32,109 bases of DNA from Marine Group II euryarchaeote MED-G33 (GTDB lineage Archaea; Thermoplasmatota; Poseidoniia; Poseidoniales; Thalassarchaeaceae). Position numbers and translations under genes: made by a program. Location: assembly GCA_949538655.1 (NCBI GenBank), contig CATISE010000192.1, forward strand, positions 1 through 32,109, in the 5' to 3' direction. Below the pieces are notes generated by a model. It had not been told where the DNA came from and made no database searches. It worked only from the letters and a program-made list of their open reading frames with translations. Shown here piece by piece: positions 2,132 to 16,731 of this stretch (its first letter is position 1; every line of letters begins with the position of its first letter).

Positions 2132-4996
2132 ATGGTGGACTACGATCCTGCTTCGATAGAGGCCCGTTGGCAGGCTGCGTGGAGTGAAGCAAAAGTCTTC
2201 CAAAGTGAAGTGGATTTGGGGCGGCCGAAATTCTACTGCCTAGAGATGTTCCCCTATCCAAGTGGAAAAATGCACATGGGACATGTTCGCAATTACAGCA
2301 TTGGCGATAGCATGGCTCGATTCCGTCGTTTGGCTGGATACAATGTGCTCTATCCAATGGGTTACGATTCATTTGGTATGCCTGCCGAGAATGCTGCAAC
2401 CAAAATTGGAGGGCATCCCCATGATGTGACTTGGGCGAATATCGAGAGTATACGCGCTGATTTGAAACGCATGGGCTTCTCATATGATTGGCGTCGAGAA
2501 CTGGCCACAAGTGATTCAACTTACTACCGCTGGAACCAATGGATCTTTCTCAAGTTCTACGAGATGGGGTTGGTTGAACGGCGTAAGGCTCCGGTGAATT
2601 GGTGCGACCCTTGTGACACCGTTCTAGCAAATGAGCAGGTCAAAAACAATCGATGCTGGAGATGTGCAGGTGAAGTTCGCCAGAAGGAAATGGCACAGTG
2701 GTTCCTGAAGATGACTGATTACGCTGATGAGTTGCTCGATGAATTAGAACATATTGAATTCCCTGAGAATGTTAAGGCCATGCAGCGCAATTGGATTGGA
2801 CGTTCCCATGGTGCAGAGATTCACTTTCCAATCATCGATAGTGATGCAGTCATCAAGGCGTTTACAACACGCCCTGATACCATTTTCGGAGTGACATTCG
2901 TAACTCTAGCACCCGAGCACTCTCTTTGCCTATCCCTCGTCGAAGGGACTGAATTCGAAGACGATTATCGGGCCCTCGCTGATGAATGTGCAAAACTTTC
3001 TGAATTCGATCGTATCAATATGCTGAAGGAAAAGAAGGGGGTTTTCCTCGGCCGATATGCATCAAACCCATTGACGGGGGAAAAAGTACCAATCTATGCA
3101 GGTAATTTCGTTGTCGCTTCCTATGGAACTGGTGCAGTAATGGCAGTACCTGGACACGACCAACGCGATCATGACTTTGCCAAGAAATACGATATTTCGA
3201 TTCTACAGGTTCTTTCGGAAGAAGAAGGAAAGGAACCCAAAGTCACTGGGCGTGCCTTCGAGGGGTTGGGTTGGATGTTCAATTCCGGCCTACCTGGTTT
3301 TGATGGTCTATATGGTGATGATGCAAAATCAGCAGTGATTCTTTCTCTAGAAGAGAAGGGCATGGGAGAAGGAACCGTGCAATATCGCCTCAAGGATTGG
3401 CTGCTCAGTCGACAGCGTTTCTGGGGCACCCCCATTCCTTTCATTCATTGTGATGACTGTGGTGTCATCCCTGTACCTGAAGACGATTTACCCATCGAAT
3501 TACCACTTGATGTTGTTTTCACAGAAGGTCAATCTGGAAACCCGTTGGCAACCCACGAAGGTTTCGTGAATACAATTTGCCCGAGTTGTGGCTTACCCGC
3601 AAAACGTGAAACCGATACAATGGACACGTTCTATGATTCGTCATGGTATTTCTTGCGATTTACAGATGCACAGAACGATTCGGCTCCTTTTGGAAAAATC
3701 AATGCAGATTATTGGATGGAAAACGGAGTGGATCTCTACATCGGTGGTATTGAGCATGCTGTGATGCACCTGCTTTACGCTCGCTTCTTTACAAAGGCGC
3801 TTCGAGATGCCGGACTTAACGACGTGTCTGAACCGTTTTCTCGTTTGGTTTGTCAAGGGATGGTGAATGCCCCCACTCCATATTGTGCCAAGTGTAATGT
3901 TGAGTATCATGTCGATTTGATTGGCCAGAAATGCCCGACCTGTAGTGACGTTCTCGGTTCTAGATCGGCAAAAATGAGCAAGAGTTTGGGCAACACCGTT
4001 AGTCCAGAAGTCATGATTGAAAAGTATGGAGCGGATACAGTTCGTCTGTTCATTCTCTTCGGTGCCAATCCAGAGGCGGGAATGGATTGGTCAGATTCAG
4101 CAATTGATTCCAATCATAGACAGATGAGAGCAATTCATACTGCCCTGAATCAAGGAATCCAAATTGATTCTGAGTCGGGGGCGATGGATGATTGGCTTCT
4201 TGCCAGAGCTCGCCAATCATGGAATAACTGGGTTGACAGCATGTCAAACGTTGGGCTTCGAGATGGAGTCATGATTAGCCATTTTGAAATGGTTGCAGAT
4301 TGGCAATGGGCACAACGTCGGGGAGGAATCAGCACAAATGCTGCTCGTGAATATTTGACCCATTGGATTCCTATGCTATATCCAGCAACACCACATATTG
4401 CAGAGGAAATGTGGAATATGATGGGGGAAGATACCATGCTCGCCCTAACGGACATTGACATGGATGTAACATCTGAAACTCCGGAACAAGACGTGATTGT
4501 GTTGGCGCAAGAGGAATATCTCCGGCGTGTAATCGACCGAGCACGCAGTGTTCGTGAACTGGCTGAACGCCATATCGATGGTAATCTTTCTGCTGTGATT
4601 ATTCAAACCGCACAAGACTGGAAATCCTCCCTCGCATCTCAAGCGATTGGTATGCACGCTGATGATTTTGATTTCAAGCAAGGTGGCAATAAATTTCTAC
4701 AGACACAACAGTGTTTCCAGGATGATGAATTGAAAGGTGAGGTCATGCAATTTTGGCGTGCAATCGTCGTTGGTCAAAAGAAACGTAGAGGTCGTATTTT
4801 CACTTGGGGAGATCAAGAAAAAACCCTCATCTTAAGCCAATATGACGAAGTGCAATTCCTGAATCAAAATACTGAATTCATAGCCAAGGTGCTGGATATT
4901 GGAAGTGTACAAGTCTACCGTGCAGGAGATGGCGAAGATGTTGCAGGTAAAGCACGTACAAGTCTGCCACTTGAACCAGGAATCGCTTGGCTATGA
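2132..4996 (+). CDS. leuS: Leucyl-tRNA synthetase, bacterial type
   Basis: This enzyme charges tRNA-Leu with leucine in the cytoplasm. At 954 residues it has the class I signatures: the HIGH box as 'HMGH' at residues 48-51 and 'KMSKS' at 614-618. The order is that of bacterial LeuRS: a zinc-binding segment ('WCDPCDTVLANEQV' followed by 'CWRC'), 'MQRNWIGRS', a CP1 editing domain with 'TTRPDTIFGVT' and 'YGTGAVMAVPGHDQRD', then 'LLSRQRFWGTPIP'. Archaeal LeuRS differs in these motifs and in where the editing domain is inserted, so bacterial origin is likely. Oddly, the segment just before KMSKS, where bacterial enzymes carry the leucine-specific domain, is a short CxxC...CxxC zinc-ribbon-like insert ('YCAKCNVEYHVDLIGQKC'). 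The ATG at 2132 follows 'gaggg' at suitable spacing and a hairpin. Confidence 0.97.
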   Translation: MVDYDPASIEARWQAAWSEAKVFQSEVDLGRPKFYCLEMFPYPSGKMHMGHVRNYSIGDSMARFRRLAGYNVLYPMGYDSFGMPAENAATKIGGHPHDVTWANIESIRADLKRMGFSYDWRRELATSDSTYYRWNQWIFLKFYEMGLVERRKAPVNWCDPCDTVLANEQVKNNRCWRCAGEVRQKEMAQWFLKMTDYADELLDELEHIEFPENVKAMQRNWIGRSHGAEIHFPIIDSDAVIKAFTTRPDTIFGVTFVTLAPEHSLCLSLVEGTEFEDDYRALADECAKLSEFDRINMLKEKKGVFLGRYASNPLTGEKVPIYAGNFVVASYGTGAVMAVPGHDQRDHDFAKKYDISILQVLSEEEGKEPKVTGRAFEGLGWMFNSGLPGFDGLYGDDAKSAVILSLEEKGMGEGTVQYRLKDWLLSRQRFWGTPIPFIHCDDCGVIPVPEDDLPIELPLDVVFTEGQSGNPLATHEGFVNTICPSCGLPAKRETDTMDTFYDSSWYFLRFTDAQNDSAPFGKINADYWMENGVDLYIGGIEHAVMHLLYARFFTKALRDAGLNDVSEPFSRLVCQGMVNAPTPYCAKCNVEYHVDLIGQKCPTCSDVLGSRSAKMSKSLGNTVSPEVMIEKYGADTVRLFILFGANPEAGMDWSDSAIDSNHRQMRAIHTALNQGIQIDSESGAMDDWLLARARQSWNNWVDSMSNVGLRDGVMISHFEMVADWQWAQRRGGISTNAAREYLTHWIPMLYPATPHIAEEMWNMMGEDTMLALTDIDMDVTSETPEQDVIVLAQEEYLRRVIDRARSVRELAERHIDGNLSAVIIQTAQDWKSSLASQAIGMHADDFDFKQGGNKFLQTQQCFQDDELKGEVMQFWRAIVVGQKKRRGRIFTWGDQEKTLILSQYDEVQFLNQNTEFIAKVLDIGSVQVYRAGDGEDVAGKARTSLPLEPGIAWL

Positions 4997-5019: not shown

Positions 5020-5232
5020 ATGAAGGAATATCTTGGAGCTTTGTTGTTTTGGGGATTCATAATTTGGTGTTTTGTTTGGCCTTCGATATCATATTCCAAA
5101 GAGAAAAAATCCAGAGGTGAAGAGGTGACTAGTGCCTGGTTCGATATGAGCGAATTCAAACTTCGATATGTGTTACCCCAACTTCTTGTTGTAGGTCTTG
5201 CTCTGGTGATTGGTATGGCTTGGGGAGGGTGA
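5020..5232 (+). CDS. Small two-span membrane protein, unknown function
   Basis: This is a 70-residue protein if started at the ATG at 5020; the ORF-track start is a TTG two codons upstream. It has a membrane segment near the N-terminus ('LLFWGFIIWCFVWPSIS'), a charged loop ('KEKKSRGEEV') and a second segment at the end ('LPQLLVVGLALVIGMAWG'). I do not recognise a family. It starts 23 bases after leuS, and its stop lies 5 bases before the next ATG. Its terminal bases also supply the Shine-Dalgarno sequence of that gene, so the two are probably co-transcribed and translated in sequence. Confidence 0.7.
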   Translation: MKEYLGALLFWGFIIWCFVWPSISYSKEKKSRGEEVTSAWFDMSEFKLRYVLPQLLVVGLALVIGMAWGG

Positions 5233-5237
5233 TTCGA

Positions 5238-5588
5238 ATGCCTACGGTACTGTTTGATGGGTTTTGTTCGACCTGTAATCGGTGGGCACAGTGGATCTCG
5301 AAGAGGGATTCAAAGAGTGTCTTTGAGCTGATTCCGCAAGATTCCCCTGAGGGTGATATAGCCATGGAATCATGCCCTGCTCACCTCAAGGAAATAGATT
5401 CAGTCTACATCGTGAATGGGGATCAGTGGTTTGTTCGTTCAAGTGCAGTTTGTCGGATGTTGTGGAAACTCAGGTTACATTGGAAAATTGCAGGCGTTCT
5501 ATTGTGGCTCATCCCTCGTCCTCTTCGGGATTTTGGATACGATATGTTCGCCAAGCGACGACATGGTTTGCTTACCTCTGATTCATGA
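5238..5588 (+). CDS. DCC-family (DUF393) thiol-disulfide oxidoreductase-like protein
   Basis: This 116-residue protein opens with 'VLFDGFCSTCNRWAQW', the DGxCxxC signature of the DUF393/DCC family (YuxK-like), which has a thioredoxin-like fold. It continues with a typical 'RSSAVCRMLWKL' segment and a hydrophobic 'LLWLIPRPLRD' stretch. Redox activity is proposed for the family from the CxxC pair, but substrates are not established. The start is the ATG at 5238, preceded by 'gggagg' at about 8 bases; the ORF-track ATG at 5220 overlaps the upstream gene and lacks such a site. Its length matches the family. It probably belongs to the leuS-side transcript. Confidence 0.88.
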   Translation: MPTVLFDGFCSTCNRWAQWISKRDSKSVFELIPQDSPEGDIAMESCPAHLKEIDSVYIVNGDQWFVRSSAVCRMLWKLRLHWKIAGVLLWLIPRPLRDFGYDMFAKRRHGLLTSDS

Positions 5589-5612: not shown

Positions 5613-6713
5613 GTGAGTTCAAATCCGAATCGTAAAAAGGATTCTTCGGCCCCTAAATCCAGTGCGTCGAAGAAGGGTGGTAGTTCTTCACGTAAAGGAA
5701 AAAGACGGCGGGGGCGCTCTAAGAAAAATGACGGGCCTCAAATCGATGAGGAAGCAGTACTTCGCGCCAAGGAACGATTTGACAGATCACCCCCTGCAAT
5801 GGGCTTACCCTCCAATCTAGATCCTCCGCCTAAGCAGATCAAACTCAGCTGGAAACTTTCACCCGTTCCCAAAAATGTTGAGCGGGAAGTACATGATATC
5901 GTTTGTAGACCCGGTGAGTTCGGTTTTCTAGACGATGAACGTGTTGACGAGATCGCGGAACAACTTGGCGATCGACCGATTTCACTCGAGCAAGCATTGA
6001 GTTTGCGTGCTGCTCTAAATCAGGAGAAAGCAGTATTCAGTCATGGACGTTTACAGAGAAGGGCCCGTGAAATGCTTCGTAAATACGATGGTGGCGAAAG
6101 CGTTCTCTCACTTTCGAAACGCTATGACTTCCCTCCAGTCAACTTATTCCGTGCAATTCTAACTGCAAGGAATTGGTCGAAAACTCGAATCAAAGAAACG
6201 CTTCGTGAAGCAGATAAGAAACTCAATGAACGTGATTTGGCTGAATTCCGAAAAGCAGAAGCAGAAGATCGTGTAACACATGTGAACCAAGCCGAGACAC
6301 ATCATGCTGCAGATTTGTTTGAGAAAGTATTGTGTGATCATTTTACTGCAAATGGAGTTCGATTTAGAACACAAACCGAATTACTGAAAGAACAAGTAGA
6401 ATCAGAGGGGCGACCAGTGAGAACACCTGATTTGTTGATGCTGGATCATGTCGAAATCAATGGCGTCCCAGTCGCTTGGATTGATGCCAAGCACTTCTAC
6501 GGTGCTGGTCTTTCTTTCCAGCGAAAGAAAACACAGAAACAGGTGAATCGTTATGCTGAGGAATGGGGGCATGGCGCGATTATTTATCGTCATGGATTCT
6601 GTGATGGACTGAAGTTACGAGGTGCCATTTTATTGGATGCAAGTCCGATTGATTTGACCGAACTAATTGAGCACAATAAACGCCTAAACGATGAACGTCT
6701 CAGTGAAGATTGA
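5613..6713 (+). CDS. TPD-motif PD-(D/E)XK nuclease, archaeal homologue of CDIN1 (C15orf41)
   Basis: This is a 366-residue protein. Residues 1-45 are a basic, Ser/Lys/Arg-rich, probably disordered tail ('GKRRRGRSKK'). Residues about 140-200 form a helical helix-turn-helix-like region ('EMLRKYDGGESVLSLSKRYD'). The C-terminal nuclease domain has an acidic helix ('FEKVLCDHFTANGVRF'), the diagnostic 'RTPDLL' (TPD at 271-273) and 'VAWIDAKHFYG' (D291, K293), then 'HGAIIYRHGF'. This order matches the TPD family that includes human CDIN1, the congenital dyserythropoietic anaemia type I protein. The predicted activity is Mg-dependent nucleic-acid cleavage; the substrate is not known from sequence. It starts at GTG. 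Its 3' end overlaps the convergent pantoate kinase gene by 14 bases. Confidence 0.85.
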   Translation: MSSNPNRKKDSSAPKSSASKKGGSSSRKGKRRRGRSKKNDGPQIDEEAVLRAKERFDRSPPAMGLPSNLDPPPKQIKLSWKLSPVPKNVEREVHDIVCRPGEFGFLDDERVDEIAEQLGDRPISLEQALSLRAALNQEKAVFSHGRLQRRAREMLRKYDGGESVLSLSKRYDFPPVNLFRAILTARNWSKTRIKETLREADKKLNERDLAEFRKAEAEDRVTHVNQAETHHAADLFEKVLCDHFTANGVRFRTQTELLKEQVESEGRPVRTPDLLMLDHVEINGVPVAWIDAKHFYGAGLSFQRKKTQKQVNRYAEEWGHGAIIYRHGFCDGLKLRGAILLDASPIDLTELIEHNKRLNDERLSED

Positions 6714-7674
6714 GTGCATCGGAAGCGATTGATGCTGAAGTTGCACCCAGTCCACGCATCTGTAGATGCTCGACGACAACGGCCTGCCAATCTGCAGATA
6801 GAGATAATTCGCTAGGTACGATAATTGCGCTTTCACCCAACATGCAAAGTCGAGCAACAAGAGCACCGTCTGCAAAACCTGCACCTGCAAGTGCACCTCC
6901 AACCAGATGCAGAAGATCAAGTCGATTTGAATCTGCTAACAATCCCGATCTTTCTACAAATTCAGCACTTTTCGAAAGTAATTCAGGCCATCTACTTGCA
7001 TCCCATTGCCCATCACGGAGCTTCAATAAACAATGTTCACCCGCAGCACGTATCGCCAATTTCCATTCACCATCGTCAATGTAATTCGAGGTGTGTTGAC
7101 TTGATGTCTTTCTCCAAACAACAACCAATGGGATCTCATCGTACCATGAGAGGACGGCGCCCGGGCCACCCAATCCATCTGGTAATTGTGGGCAACCGGG
7201 TTCCAATCGCAATTCCACACCGCCTGAATGAAGTGCAGCGACATCACCTAAACCACCAGACAATTGTCGTTCAACTCTATGCGCGACATGGATGGCGCGA
7301 GAACGCGCCAAATCTTCGTCTACCCCAAGTGCGCGTTGAATGGCCAGAGCACAACCAATCGCACCTGCCGCTGAAAGCCCAAATCCTTGGGAGGGGGGCA
7401 ACTCACATTCATGAGATAAAATCCAATCATGATCACCGAATGCGGAATCGTGTCCCTTGAGTTCTTCAAGGACCAACTGGTGTAACTCTGAGCCTGGTGC
7501 ATCTCCCTCTATTGTGAGTAATCCATTTCCAGATTTTGCTTTGGCTTCGATAATGACTCCGCAATCCAAAGCCAAGCCAGCCCCCCGACTTCCTTGCTCA
7601 AGTAAAATTTCAGAATCATCTTGGACACTGAAAATCAGCGTTACATGACCACCCACCCGGGCTCGACCTTGCAT
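6700..7674 (-). CDS. Pantoate kinase (archaeal GHMP-kinase family)
   Basis: This enzyme phosphorylates pantoate to 4-phosphopantoate, the archaeal route to coenzyme A that replaces bacterial pantothenate synthetase and kinase. The protein has about 324 residues and the COG1829 pattern: N-terminal 'GSRGAGLALDCGV', the GHMP ATP-binding loop 'PPSQGFGLSAAGAIGCALA', and 'SGGLGDVAALHSGGVE'. ATG at 7674 is preferred; the tracked start is the GTG codon just before it. The gene follows rpoD by about 40 bases on the same strand, so it may end the S13-S4-S11-RpoD transcript, although the gap contains two hairpins. Phosphopantothenate synthetase, its usual pathway partner, is not in the window. The last 14 bases overlap the convergent nuclease gene. 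Confidence 0.93.
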   Translation of the reverse strand: MQGRARVGGHVTLIFSVQDDSEILLEQGSRGAGLALDCGVIIEAKAKSGNGLLTIEGDAPGSELHQLVLEELKGHDSAFGDHDWILSHECELPPSQGFGLSAAGAIGCALAIQRALGVDEDLARSRAIHVAHRVERQLSGGLGDVAALHSGGVELRLEPGCPQLPDGLGGPGAVLSWYDEIPLVVVWRKTSSQHTSNYIDDGEWKLAIRAAGEHCLLKLRDGQWDASRWPELLSKSAEFVERSGLLADSNRLDLLHLVGGALAGAGFADGALVARLCMLGESAIIVPSELSLSADWQAVVVEHLQMRGLGATSASIASDALNLH

Positions 7675-7679
7675 CACAA

Positions 7680-10278: not shown

Positions 10279-11535
10279 TTAGGCTTGTTTGCAGATTGCA
10301 TAACCATCTCCGGATTCGGTCAAGAAGCCGGGGCACACAGTCAAATCAGAATTGCGTGACTTCATTTCTTGGTCGATTGCAGATTGTAATTTTGGTTGTA
10401 TATCCGGATCGATTTGGCATCGTAATTTGAGGTTTGTAAGCCCTGCAGCATTTGCACAGTCTGCAAGTTCATTTAATGATTCAAATGATACCTCTGATAC
10501 GAATCCAACTATTTCTCCAGAAATTTGGACAAAACCCCCCACCATTTTTTGATTTGAAATCGCTTCACTGCTAATGAAACTCGGGCGTCTCCCGGTGAGT
10601 TTTAGCCAGGCTGATGAAACTTCATTTTTGACGGCATTTTCCCGCCAGGATTCGCTCAAACCACTCGCCACCAAACTTGGATCCACAATCGTCAAGAAAT
10701 CCCCCAACTCCATCGCATGAGATTCCACTACGGGTTGTGATTTCACTCCAGTAAGAATACTGATTTCGCCGCTCTTAGACAGACGAATCAGTCGATTTGG
10801 TTGTGAATCCGCCACGGGACCAACCCACAATGACAACCGATCAATGCGCCCACGGCCTTGTGTCATCCATTGCCATGTCATGTCCAAGCCATTCCAAATG
10901 GAAGAAACGATTTCTTCAACTTCCATTCTTTGCGCGTCTGACAACCGTGGTGATAAATCAAGAATCAACGCAGGATTGGTGCCTAGATGGGGTGCCCATT
11001 CAGAAAGAAGATGCCCCAAGCGAGGTTGCATTTCATCCAATGTATGTTGTTGTGCATCCTGTGGTCTGGCGGGGTCAATGTGTAACAATGCAATCGCAGA
11101 AGTGGCCCCTACGTTTTGCTGGTACGTTTGTAGGATTGAATTGGCATCGGTTCCATCCCCCCACAGGATTCGGCTCGAGTCAACCCAATTTTGCTCAGCC
11201 CAGATTGCTGTCCGTTCAAGATTGATTGCAGCAAGAGGTGCAGCCGCACCAGACAATTCCACGCCCAAACCGGGTCGATTTAGTGCAGAGCATATGGCTG
11301 CAAGTTGCGTTGCACTACCGCAGGCCGGATCAAGGATTGCACCTTCTGAAATGTCACAGTTCCTCAATAGATTTGCTCGCGCGATTGCAACAGGCCAAGG
11401 TGTAGCCAAACGGCGCATTTCCTCGGTCGCATGCAATGCAGGTCCGTGCTTATCCTCACGAGCGGGGGCGCTAGAATCGGCATAAGCACGTGCATTATCG
11501 TCCGGTACCATGACCACCGGTTTGATGTCCGCCAT
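10279..11535 (-). CDS. Class I SAM-dependent methyltransferase-like protein (possible THUMP-like family)
   Basis: This is a 418-residue protein. A Rossmann methyltransferase core is visible: motif I 'ILDPACGSATQLAA' (about residues 67-80), an acidic motif II region 'GLGVELSGAA', 'WGDGTDANSI', and 'LLHIDPARPQDAQQHTL' as the motif IV equivalent. It is followed by 'ALILDLSPRLS' and 'QGRGRIDRLSLWVGP'. The DPAR motif plus the 'LSLWVG' element resembles a family annotated as SAM-dependent methyltransferases with a C-terminal THUMP-like domain, which suggests an RNA substrate. That assignment is from memory of the pattern and is moderate. The C-terminal third is poorly conserved in my reading. 'gggggtgat' precedes the ATG. 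The gene is 43 bases downstream of the FKBP-like gene. Confidence 0.7.
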   Translation of the reverse strand: MADIKPVVMVPDDNARAYADSSAPAREDKHGPALHATEEMRRLATPWPVAIARANLLRNCDISEGAILDPACGSATQLAAICSALNRPGLGVELSGAAAPLAAINLERTAIWAEQNWVDSSRILWGDGTDANSILQTYQQNVGATSAIALLHIDPARPQDAQQHTLDEMQPRLGHLLSEWAPHLGTNPALILDLSPRLSDAQRMEVEEIVSSIWNGLDMTWQWMTQGRGRIDRLSLWVGPVADSQPNRLIRLSKSGEISILTGVKSQPVVESHAMELGDFLTIVDPSLVASGLSESWRENAVKNEVSSAWLKLTGRRPSFISSEAISNQKMVGGFVQISGEIVGFVSEVSFESLNELADCANAAGLTNLKLRCQIDPDIQPKLQSAIDQEMKSRNSDLTVCPGFLTESGDGYAICKQA

Positions 11536-12609: not shown

Positions 12610-15600
12610 TCAATCTTGAGCCAATTGCATATCGTGCCTAGTTCCCAACCAAGCGACGATTCCCAACTCAATTCCAAGCGCGACAAGCATGAGCAGTAGC
12701 ATGGTTGGGTCTAGGATTTGGTTTTGGAGGATCAGCATAGCGAGGCAGAGTGCCAAGACTAGGTCCAACGCACCCATCACCCGCATTCCACGCCTGAGTT
12801 GGTAAATTCCTCCAACCCAAGTCGTCAGAGATAGGGCCAAGACGCAGACGACCACCCAAGGAGACCAACCAGCGATTGCAAAGACTCCCACAGGCAGGAG
12901 GATGTGGGCATTCCACAACCACGCTGTTGTCCATTTTGGTAAACCAGCAAAGATTGTGTAAACCTGCGCGAATAGCATCGTGACACCTGTGGCCAAAATC
13001 GTCCATTGCAAAATATTTCGATACCCGTCTCCTTCAGTCCATGCAATGAACGCAAACATCCCTCCGAGAATCGCATGGACAGAGATCGCCACCCCGGCAG
13101 GTTGCTTCCAATTGAATGAGCGTTTCATGCAAAGAATTCCAGCGAGTATTCCAGCAGGTCCAGCTGAAATCATGACGACCATGAGAGCGAAACTTCCCCG
13201 TCCTGCCGCGCCTCTATGGTCAGGCATACCATTCGTCCGTCGGAATGCTTCAATCCATTCCCAAACAAGAACGAGGCCAATCAACGTAACTTCATGGAAC
13301 AACCAAGGTAACTGCCAATCGATCAACCCATGAGAACCATCTAGTAAATCAATTGTGAACGGGAATGGCGTGGCATTGAACAGTACAGCCCCAGTCAACC
13401 TTGAGAGAAGTAGCATGATGACAATTCCTTCAACGGCACTCGGAATTCTCCAAGGAAGGTCTTCCCGACCATACAATGAAATCAGTGAGAGGCCGATTAG
13501 ACCGAAGGTGAGCACCAACAAATCGAGTTGATTGTATAGACTCCCTAGTGGTCCAAAATGACCGACGAGATAAATCAATGATAACGAACCCATGGTGACA
13601 AAGAAGGGCATTTCTATGCCATTGATATCCGGCAATCGAAGGTTATGCACTTTGGCTCTCTGCCTCGACACCCATGTGAGAGCCAGAGCAAACATACTGA
13701 CCATTAGCATCAATCCTGAATTCAACTGCCCATTCATCCAGGCAACCCAACAGGCTGCCAAGGTGGTCACTGCGATGAATGAGAGTACAATGATCGGGCG
13801 ATGATGGATATCGCCAATCAACAAATCCATCTCATCTGAATTGTATTGCGCGCCTGAGCGGCGGCGGCGTTTACGCTGTTTATCGATCAATTCATACAAT
13901 TCAGCATCGGCCATCTTCATCCCACCGCGTGAGATGGCCTGTGAGAGCGATTTCGCCATAACTCCTGTCCGATCAGCGGTGGCTTTTGCTGCCAAGTCTT
14001 CATCCGCAAAATGGAATAAATGCCCTCCTTGTTGTACATCTAGTGGTTTGGGCTCTTCGCCAATTACGGTCATTGCAGATGATGAAACCGCCCCTTCCGT
14101 GAGCAACTTTGGTTCGGAAAATTCACCTAATTGTCCCTTTTCAAGTGCGGCAGCCAATGCTTGTCGATGCTGGATTTCAGCCAACCTAGCATCGCGCTTC
14201 CCGACCTGCTTAAGTTCCATTCTCAATTCACCCGTAGCAGCTAGATAGAGGGCCGATCCTACGAATGCAGCGATTGAAAGGATGGATTGTGCAACGTGCA
14301 TTCCGTCTGCAATCGATGCCCAAATCTGAATGCTCAACAAACAAACAACAGCAATTGCAGGAGGTAGTAATTTCTCCAAGTTTCTGGCTTTTGGAAGATA
14401 GATTGCCAAGAGCCCGCTAGAGGCGATAATCACCACAAATCCAGTCATGACTTGATCTAACGGTTCTGGATTGAGTAGGGGGAAAGGCCGACTGTGATCC
14501 AATCCGAATAACACAATTTGTAGGGTCAGTAACCCCATCGCTAAACTCAACAATTGGGATGTCGGACCACCTGTGCCTCGTGTGAGTAGTATGGCAATCG
14601 ATGCACTGGTCAGTATGAGAATCCAAAACGCATCTGCTCCGTAATTCCATTGCAATACAGCGAATGTCAGTGCCAGAGCGAATAAAATCAATCGCGGATT
14701 ACCTTGATGCTTTCCTTGGGCCTCTGCAGCCACGTGGACGCAAACCAATGCACCAATACCCAGTAGAGTGTACCAACCAATGTCATCCCGGCCATCGACA
14801 AACATCAACCATACTGCAAGACCTGAAATCAATCCAAGATTCCACAAACGCATCAACCCTGAATCCCGGAGACGCGAACTCAATTCGGTTGCCCCCATCA
14901 ATTTGCCAGCGAGGTTGACTCCAGTATCCCCCAATTTGAGGTTGATCGGATACTGAATAATTGCGGCGACTGTGAGATATAAGGCAACATATTTCGGTTC
15001 AAGAACAATCAATAAATCCACATCGATATCCCTTGCTTCTGAGAACGATTCCAATGATGATGTCCACAATGCATGTACAAACATCCACAGCCAGGGCGTA
15101 AGTACGGTGGCACCAGCAATACTGGGTGATACACGCTTGAGTGCAAGTACGCCCGTGGCCAAATGAATCACTGTCATCCCAATGAGGAGATACAGTCCCT
15201 CATCCCCCCCATCCGATACGGCCTCGGCGGGAATCAAGATGGTCAAGAGTAGAATGAGGACCATGCTCCCCAACCAAAGTACTCGATCGGTAACATTAGA
15301 TTGGTGTTGGAGAAGCATCGCGACCGTGACGATTGCTGCAAGAACTGCGAAGACCTCGTATCCAGATACTGGTCCCAGTTCAAATAAGTTTGATTCCAGA
15401 CTGACAAGTATGATCAGCAAAACAGGCAATGCAGTGAGCAATGGTTTCAGGACCTCCATTGCATCGACGCCTCGAACGACCAGATACGACCCACCATATA
15501 CTGCGAGTAATGTAACCAAGATGCCCAATGAGTAACCGGTTGCATCACGACCGCTAGCCAGAAGGAGAAGGGCTCCAATCATCCCGAGACCTACAGAGAC

Positions 15601-16662
15601 CCCCCACAATCCAGGCTTACCCAGACCGCTGATTGCAATTCCCTTGCTAAACCAGTTATCCGCACGCGAGAAGCGAGCAGCCATCGATCCGTTAATGCAA
15701 GTAATTACCAGAGCGAGTAGGAAGAGTGGCATCGGATCAGCGAGTGGCAAAATCTCGAGTGCACCGATTTCAAGGGGCTCCGATTGAATCGCATGGAGCC
15801 CAATCCACAGGTGGCTGGCAGCAATGCCCAATGATGCAAGGTTTCCACTTTTTCGATGATACGCCAAGCCGTGTAGTAGGATGGTTGCGAGCATGATCAT
15901 GACAGCAACACCCATCTCACCTCCGACAGAACCTGCAGCAGAAGCAAGTGCAAGAGAAACGAGTGTAGCCTGTGCCATAATCGCGTCATGCTTGTGGCGA
16001 TATCCGACCAAAATGTTGACGCCGACAAGTGCGATGAGTGACCCACCCAATTGCGGTGTGTCAATCCAGCCCCAGTGGTGTGCATCAATCGCCAAACCAT
16101 AGAGTAGTTTCATTGAGATGATGACCCATGTCACCCCGAGAATGTGCATACCCTTGTCTGGAACCCAACGTTCTCCGAGAATGAATCCCAATGTCGCCAG
16201 GCCGATCAACCCGGCCGTAGCAACCACCGGTTCTAGAGCTGTAGCAACGAGCCATCCAATCAGGCTGTAAACCAGAATCATTGTTACCATTAAGGCCCAA
16301 TGTAATCGGCGTTCACCTTCGACCGCCATTTCTGTAATCGTGTCTAATTCAGGCGTTTCATACACAGTCCCATCCGCTAAAATATCACCAGGTTTCGGAC
16401 CGGATTCGGAATCGAAAACTTCGAAAATTTCACCGATTGCATCATCCGATTGATTATCACTATCCGATACTCCTTTCACTTCAACCCCAGCGGTTGCATC
16501 GGTAGGGGAACCACCCGGTAGTGCAGGTCGTTTCGCGGACGCCAAATCATCAGTGGTCATGAAGGCATTAAGATCGATGCCGCCGCCCATCTGAAAGGCA
16601 CGGGAATCGATGATTCTGTCCTCGGAAGGAGCATCAGAATCTTCGTCCTCATCCCCCGCCAT
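12610..16662 (-). CDS. Giant polytopic membrane protein, about 37 spans, unknown function
   Basis: About 1350 residues from the ATG at 16662. The tracked start is a TTG at 16719, which would add 19 residues; neither has a Shine-Dalgarno sequence. An acidic N-terminal tail of about 130 residues ('MAGDEDEDSDAP') precedes some 24 hydrophobic segments. A soluble, charged middle domain (roughly 'TGELRMELKQVGKRDARLAE' to 'KQRKRRRRSGAQYN') follows, then about 13 more segments. I recognise no transport, enzyme or receptor signature; charged residues inside the spans are few. Very large membrane proteins such as the DUF2339 group have a similar look, but I cannot claim homology. It is divergent from pckA, with which it shares an intergenic TATA-like box, and lies upstream of the FKBP-like gene. 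Confidence 0.75.
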   Translation of the reverse strand: MAGDEDEDSDAPSEDRIIDSRAFQMGGGIDLNAFMTTDDLASAKRPALPGGSPTDATAGVEVKGVSDSDNQSDDAIGEIFEVFDSESGPKPGDILADGTVYETPELDTITEMAVEGERRLHWALMVTMILVYSLIGWLVATALEPVVATAGLIGLATLGFILGERWVPDKGMHILGVTWVIISMKLLYGLAIDAHHWGWIDTPQLGGSLIALVGVNILVGYRHKHDAIMAQATLVSLALASAAGSVGGEMGVAVMIMLATILLHGLAYHRKSGNLASLGIAASHLWIGLHAIQSEPLEIGALEILPLADPMPLFLLALVITCINGSMAARFSRADNWFSKGIAISGLGKPGLWGVSVGLGMIGALLLLASGRDATGYSLGILVTLLAVYGGSYLVVRGVDAMEVLKPLLTALPVLLIILVSLESNLFELGPVSGYEVFAVLAAIVTVAMLLQHQSNVTDRVLWLGSMVLILLLTILIPAEAVSDGGDEGLYLLIGMTVIHLATGVLALKRVSPSIAGATVLTPWLWMFVHALWTSSLESFSEARDIDVDLLIVLEPKYVALYLTVAAIIQYPINLKLGDTGVNLAGKLMGATELSSRLRDSGLMRLWNLGLISGLAVWLMFVDGRDDIGWYTLLGIGALVCVHVAAEAQGKHQGNPRLILFALALTFAVLQWNYGADAFWILILTSASIAILLTRGTGGPTSQLLSLAMGLLTLQIVLFGLDHSRPFPLLNPEPLDQVMTGFVVIIASSGLLAIYLPKARNLEKLLPPAIAVVCLLSIQIWASIADGMHVAQSILSIAAFVGSALYLAATGELRMELKQVGKRDARLAEIQHRQALAAALEKGQLGEFSEPKLLTEGAVSSSAMTVIGEEPKPLDVQQGGHLFHFADEDLAAKATADRTGVMAKSLSQAISRGGMKMADAELYELIDKQRKRRRRSGAQYNSDEMDLLIGDIHHRPIIVLSFIAVTTLAACWVAWMNGQLNSGLMLMVSMFALALTWVSRQRAKVHNLRLPDINGIEMPFFVTMGSLSLIYLVGHFGPLGSLYNQLDLLVLTFGLIGLSLISLYGREDLPWRIPSAVEGIVIMLLLSRLTGAVLFNATPFPFTIDLLDGSHGLIDWQLPWLFHEVTLIGLVLVWEWIEAFRRTNGMPDHRGAAGRGSFALMVVMISAGPAGILAGILCMKRSFNWKQPAGVAISVHAILGGMFAFIAWTEGDGYRNILQWTILATGVTMLFAQVYTIFAGLPKWTTAWLWNAHILLPVGVFAIAGWSPWVVVCVLALSLTTWVGGIYQLRRGMRVMGALDLVLALCLAMLILQNQILDPTMLLLMLVALGIELGIVAWLGTRHDMQLAQD

Positions 16663-16731
16663 ATTACGAAGCAATCCATTCGTCGCATAAGCGTCGCCCT
16701 GTATTGGAATGTAATTCAAGGTGTTTGGTTA

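Follow-up and report, generated by a model that had tools for sequence, protein, structure and literature searches.

A remodelled subfamily of TPD/CDIN1-type predicted nucleases in the archaeal order Poseidoniales

CDIN1 (C15orf41) is one of two genes known to underlie congenital dyserythropoietic anaemia type I. The human protein has been described as having two HTH domains and a PD-(D/E)XK domain, in which D196 has been named as the active-site aspartate (PMC7261414), and no nuclease activity was seen on many DNA and RNA substrates, either with CDIN1 alone or with CDIN1 together with a Codanin-1 fragment (PMC7261414, PMC13370696). Codanin-1 has been described only in eukaryotes and C15orf41 has been called the more ancient of the two (PMC7092493), human and archaeal C15orf41 matching with an E value of ~1e-34 (PMC7092493). 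Because CDIN1 orthologues in Euryarchaeota have been published (PMC7092493, PMC6519365), the archaeal kind is already known; viral members have also been mentioned (PMC6519365).

Here, we analysed a stretch of 32,109 nucleotides (the window) from a Marine Group II euryarchaeote of the order Poseidoniales, in which one open reading frame had been proposed to encode an archaeal homologue of CDIN1 (the original prediction). The frame has a GTG start and encodes 366 amino acids, with exactly the limits first given (Table 1). Compared with three close relatives its dN/dS is low, a rough value since dS is near 2 and hence near saturation. The gene is real, and purifying selection acts on it.

Table 1. 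Parts of the TPD gene and its neighbours in the window.
Feature	Position	Strand	Evidence
TPD-family (PF14811) predicted PD-(D/E)XK nuclease	5613..6713	+	ORF; Pfam 74 bits, E 1.4e-20; dN/dS ~0.04
Basic disordered N-terminal tail, residues 1-41	5613..5735	+	15 K/R, 2 D/E; block pLDDT 40-61 (residues 1-40); only in Poseidoniales, absent from other archaeal members
Remainder of N-terminal extension, residues 42-99	5736..5909	+	Without counterpart in the 255-aa archaeal form (alignment); mostly confident in model
Helical HTH-like domain, residues 100-218, conserved DFPP motif (P175)	5910..6266	+	Alignments; model helices 108-218
Predicted PD-(D/E)XK core, residues 219-342: D219, E237, T271-P272-D273, D291-A292-K293, Q310-x3-Y314, D342	6267..6638	+	Alignments; model
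Leucyl-tRNA synthetase (LeuRS)	2132..4996	+	Pfam; upstream in all relatives of the order examined (synteny)
DCC1-like thiol-disulphide oxidoreductase	5220..5588	+	PF04134, E 1.5e-20; 24 nt upstream, same strand; only some related genera
GHMP kinase (cluster 16)	6700..7677	-	PF00288, E 2.2e-7; convergent downstream, overlaps the TPD gene by 14 nt

The proposed family was confirmed by both the Pfam and the profile-profile comparisons. The Pfam TPD entry, the family to which human CDIN1 belongs, covers residues 209-336 with a score far above chance (curated cutoff 27 bits), and no second family passes in a Pfam scan of the window protein, the sole other line being a sub-threshold match to DUF790. 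A T-P-D motif followed by (E/D)-x-K, which characterises the family, is present as T271-P272-D273 and D291-A-K293, and the nuclease domain is joined to a helical N-terminal domain that is HTH-like as judged by its predicted helices (108-218). When 13 Poseidoniales sequences were compared as a profile with 21 other archaeal TPD proteins, the match had a probability of 99.8% (E 1.6e-27) and extended along 231 columns covering residues 108-349, that is, both the helical and the nuclease domains. Additionally, all 42 diverse relatives match TPD in Pfam, in which no other nuclease family was matched beyond two weak RmuC lines. We therefore regard membership of the window protein in the TPD/CDIN1 family as highly probable. 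A search of PDB sequences found no CDIN1 chain and no relative with a solved structure. The predicted link to CDIN1 itself runs through the shared Pfam family and the published human-archaeal matches (PMC7092493). Both proteins have a helical or HTH region at the N terminus and a PD-(D/E)XK domain after it; the window protein differs in its ~100 extra N-terminal residues and its D-A-K motif.

Typical archaeal TPD proteins, from Methanomassiliicoccales and other Thermoplasmatota, match the window protein in both domains and have all catalytic residues in common with it. They are, however, only ~255 aa long and carry ESKASFGD where the window protein has DAKHFYGA, and many of their genes are followed by one for a Cas4-like nuclease. 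The window protein has ~100 more N-terminal residues, and its TPD motif starts at residue 271, compared to ~170 in the typical form of 255-268 aa; it is thus longer than typical archaeal members and not the compact archaeal version that had been described. The basic tail that had also been proposed is present, and lies at the N terminus (Table 1).

AlphaFold was run on the window protein (pLDDT 88) and on one of the typical archaeal proteins (pLDDT 93). Each model predicts a C-terminal domain of helix-strand-strand-strand-helix-strand topology, as in PD-(D/E)XK nucleases, in which D and (D/E)xK lie on neighbouring strands; the nuclease core that structure prediction had been expected to reveal was modelled confidently. 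Foldseek searches of the PDB with the two models gave no significant match, the best E values being 0.88 in one and 0.22 in the other. The weak, non-significant matches comprised AgeI, Hef, XPF and OkrAI for one model, and DdmD, Rpb5, AF1548, the Pyrococcus abyssi repair endonuclease 2vld, BbvCI, I-Ssp6803I and a resolvase for the typical member; PD-(D/E)XK superfamily members such as these are frequent in both weak lists.

Across 153 archaeal sequences, D219, E237, T271, P272, D273, W289, K293, Q310, Y314, G319, G321 and G328 are the same in every case, and position 291 holds either D or E; among the core residues in Table 1, variation is confined to positions 291, 292 and 342. The acidic helix (H226-246) carries E237 and precedes TPD, such that the alignments and the model reproduce the motif order of the original prediction, with an HTH-like region, an acidic helix, TPD and D-A-K. 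D291 and K293 had been correctly named as site residues, whereas the TPD aspartate is D273 and not D272. The alignments thus support the prediction of an intact PD-(D/E)XK active site, in which D273 should be the presumed counterpart of human D196, the aspartate that has been assigned to the active site (PMC7261414). Following the (D/E)xK strand is Q310-x3-Y314, a motif common to RecB-like nucleases (PMC4454674). As a separate observation, human Y238, altered in the Y238C mutation of congenital dyserythropoietic anaemia type I (PMC6539198), would fall near the tyrosine of the invariant QxxxY by the D196/D172 numbering offset.

Placement in another PD-(D/E)XK family was suggested by none of the profiles compared (Hjc, DUF790/Bax1 and Cas4). 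Solo-Cas4/RecB-like nucleases have the same order of motifs (PD, (E/D)xK, QxxxY) as TPD proteins, and the order PD / E-x-K / Q-x3-Y also occurs in the Cas4-like family. The window protein has no Pfam hit to these nucleases (PF12705, PF01930), an hhalign probability of only 0.2% and no conserved cysteines, the Fe-S cysteines of Cas4 being conserved nowhere among TPD proteins. Since the profile comparison gives no homology signal, Q-x3-Y is a motif-level resemblance to Cas4. Hjc (PF01870) belongs to the same PD-(D/E)XK superfamily as TPD; its profile, built from three rows only, matched TPD with a probability of 0.2%, and Pfam gave no Hjc hit. The sub-threshold DUF790/Bax1 (PF05626) hit on the window protein (E 0.047, 12.9 bits vs a cutoff of 28.8) raised the possibility of a link to that family, which we rejected by profile comparison (hhalign 0.1% and 0.2%, with a small alignment); no DUF790/Bax1 match was found in the window's genome. 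In the genomes sampled, 14 of the 16 bearing DUF790/Bax1 lack TPD, although these represent a handful of families and the pattern may reflect ancestry alone.

TPD proteins were found in 239 of 390 genomes of the phylum. Within the window's order they occur in 123 of 127 genomes, which are incomplete, and nearly always as one copy; by family, counted by hand from the table, 55/55 genomes of the window's family and 68/72 of the other family carry one. Exceptions to the single copy are genome G280, with two TPD genes (L187 and L188), and G295 and G372, with two matches each. Methanosarcina acetivorans gave the only match among 14 control genomes outside the phylum. Spread by viruses, plasmids or phages was considered and rejected, as no TPD homologue was found in the viral contigs, plasmids or phages searched. 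Apparent fusion proteins from 700-aa open frames in one further family (f6) were likewise discarded, being unrelated low-complexity sequence ahead of the TPD region and artefacts of high-GC open frames.

The Poseidoniales proteins stand apart from the rest of the family, scoring ~74-82 bits against the TPD profile (among the matches listed) compared to 126-168 elsewhere. Each of the 32 sequences from the order has Q254, D291, A292, R326 and H327, with H (29) or N (3) at position 294 and A (30) or G (2) at position 298. In the 121 sequences from outside the order, by contrast, E254 and S292 are kept without exception, and the other positions are nearly so (E291 in 120 and D in 1; W326 in 120; D298 in 119). 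The signature of ESK to DAK, E254 to Q and W326 to R is therefore found in 32/32 sequences of the order and in at most 1/121 elsewhere. In the tree, the order forms a single clade on a stem of ~3.5 changes per column, and its grouping with the sister family f3 was not rejected (p-AU 0.79); its exact placement is uncertain because of the long branches. Distribution and tree fit vertical descent together with a single burst of rapid change. As far as the literature consulted shows, the remodelled subfamily with its fixed signature, together with the gene pairing described below, is new here, as are its near-universal presence in an order with no histone-fold match and the RecB/Cas4-like QxxxY motif.

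The original prediction had also drawn attention to neighbouring tRNA-charging and translation genes. LeuRS and ribosomal genes are indeed nearby: almost every relative examined from the order has LeuRS on the upstream side of TPD and a convergent GHMP kinase-RpoD-S11-S4-S13 cluster on the downstream side, and the genes that separate LeuRS from TPD vary. This synteny is specific to the order and gives no functional clue; outside the order, TPD instead adjoins a Cas4-like gene accompanied by genes for GlmS, RNase HII or GTP cyclohydrolase. Because the LeuRS/ribosomal context is found only in the window's order, we rejected the link to translation through the neighbourhood. Elsewhere in the window, positions 10279-11535 (minus strand) encode a 418-aa protein that is conserved in the order, matches nothing in Pfam or NCBIfam and, by eye, resembles a SAM-dependent methyltransferase (DPACGS), and positions 12610-16719 (minus strand) hold a 1369-aa open reading frame with no Pfam match.

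At 30 loci of the Methanomassiliicoccales type, the next gene on the same strand encodes a Cas4-like nuclease (PF12705, E 8.7e-12; NCBIfam cas4 above cutoff), mostly at a spacing of -14 to +60 nt (e.g. L072:2001-2972). The protein has hydrophobic middle stretches that, judged by eye, resemble membrane segments. Solo-Cas4 genes are known, and a role in defence or repair has been suggested for them (PMC5704561). A Cas4-like gene does not adjoin TPD in the window's order, and the full-length form occurs on another contig in several TPD-bearing families and also in families without TPD, so that the link between the two is only suggestive, and strict co-occurrence was rejected.

Our preferred reading, to which we assign a probability of roughly 0.6, is that the window protein represents a heavily remodelled archaeal version of the CDIN1/TPD nuclease, orthologous to it and fixed across the whole order, with a role in DNA processing in genome upkeep. 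That it is a working metal-dependent nuclease we consider probable. In such an enzyme, nucleic acid, most likely DNA, would be held by the basic tail together with the HTH-like helical domain, and the C-terminal PD-(D/E)XK domain would bind Mg2+ or Mn2+ via D273, D291 and probably E237, allowing K293 to act as the catalytic lysine in cutting the phosphodiester bond; Q310-x3-Y314 would sit on the helix that follows the core strands, the position it has in RecB/Cas4-type nucleases. The activity may be directed at DNA ends, flaps or gaps, rather than serving Holliday-junction resolution or defence. The analysis itself establishes family membership, the predicted fold, the invariant active-site residues, the near-universality in the order and a pattern in keeping with vertical descent. 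We infer catalysis, DNA as the substrate over RNA and an end-processing role, the guess of DNA processing being drawn from the HTH-like domain, QxxxY, the Cas4-like gene next to TPD in relatives and a distribution that is conserved and non-mobile.

Similar features could be accommodated by a protein that processes RNA in connection with translation or tRNA, since RNA-cutting PD-(D/E)XK enzymes such as Pet127 exist (PMC9014873) and the gene sits between LeuRS and the GHMP kinase-RpoD-S11-S4-S13 cluster in almost every relative examined from the order; nevertheless, this context is not kept outside the order and the ribosomal genes are convergent with TPD, making such a role unlikely. Resolution of Holliday junctions, first proposed for CDIN1 from its similarity to archaeal Hjc, appears more doubtful still. 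Both proteins are of the PD-(D/E)XK type, and no Hjc match was found in TPD-bearing genomes of the sister family f3 (five genomes) or in G062, G083 and G087 of family f30. However, Hjc is encoded both in the window's genome (G000:C63:20058-20417, 43.8 bits) and in its order, which led us to reject TPD as an Hjc replacement; moreover, the profiles share no signal, and the residues that stay constant in the three Hjc sequences compared do not include QxxxY.

A protein that keeps the PD-(D/E)XK fold without cutting, as Rpb5 does, and that serves as a scaffold or nucleic-acid-binding factor would be in line with the lack of activity seen for human CDIN1 (PMC7261414), with the appearance of Rpb5 among the weak fold matches of the typical member and with the changes at otherwise invariant residues near the site in the order (E254 to Q, D298 to A or G). 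Yet none of the 153 sequences departs from the catalytic set, lysine included, which is hard to explain without catalysis, and we consider this possibility about as improbable as junction resolution. Least plausible of all is a restriction or anti-phage defence nuclease: the predicted fold is like that of restriction enzymes, and AgeI, BbvCI and DdmD are among the weak fold matches, but the protein is near-universal and nearly always single-copy in a pattern of vertical descent, PADLOC gave no match, and no homologue was found on the plasmids, phages or viral contigs searched.

As a more speculative extension of the DNA-processing reading, which we think unlikely, the Poseidoniales protein may have been neofunctionalised, with ESK to DAK, E254Q, loss of D298, W326R and the new basic tail having changed its substrate or partner, and in its relatives TPD and a membrane-inserted solo-Cas4 may form a two-nuclease DNA-processing pair. 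If true, the origin of CDIN1 would lie in a DNA-processing enzyme with no connection to histones. Histone-fold proteins were found in 11 of 116 genomes of the phylum, with no match in the sampled genomes of the window's order, and the role of TPD there therefore cannot depend on histone supply by ASF1/Codanin-1. The near-universality of TPD in an order without detectable histones argues that the original job of the family was not histone supply. Archaeal TPD proteins offer small, single-protein versions of the family, among which the 255-aa form is a better assay target than the 366-aa window protein, and the fixed signature of the Poseidoniales provides a natural set of substitutions around the predicted active site to test.
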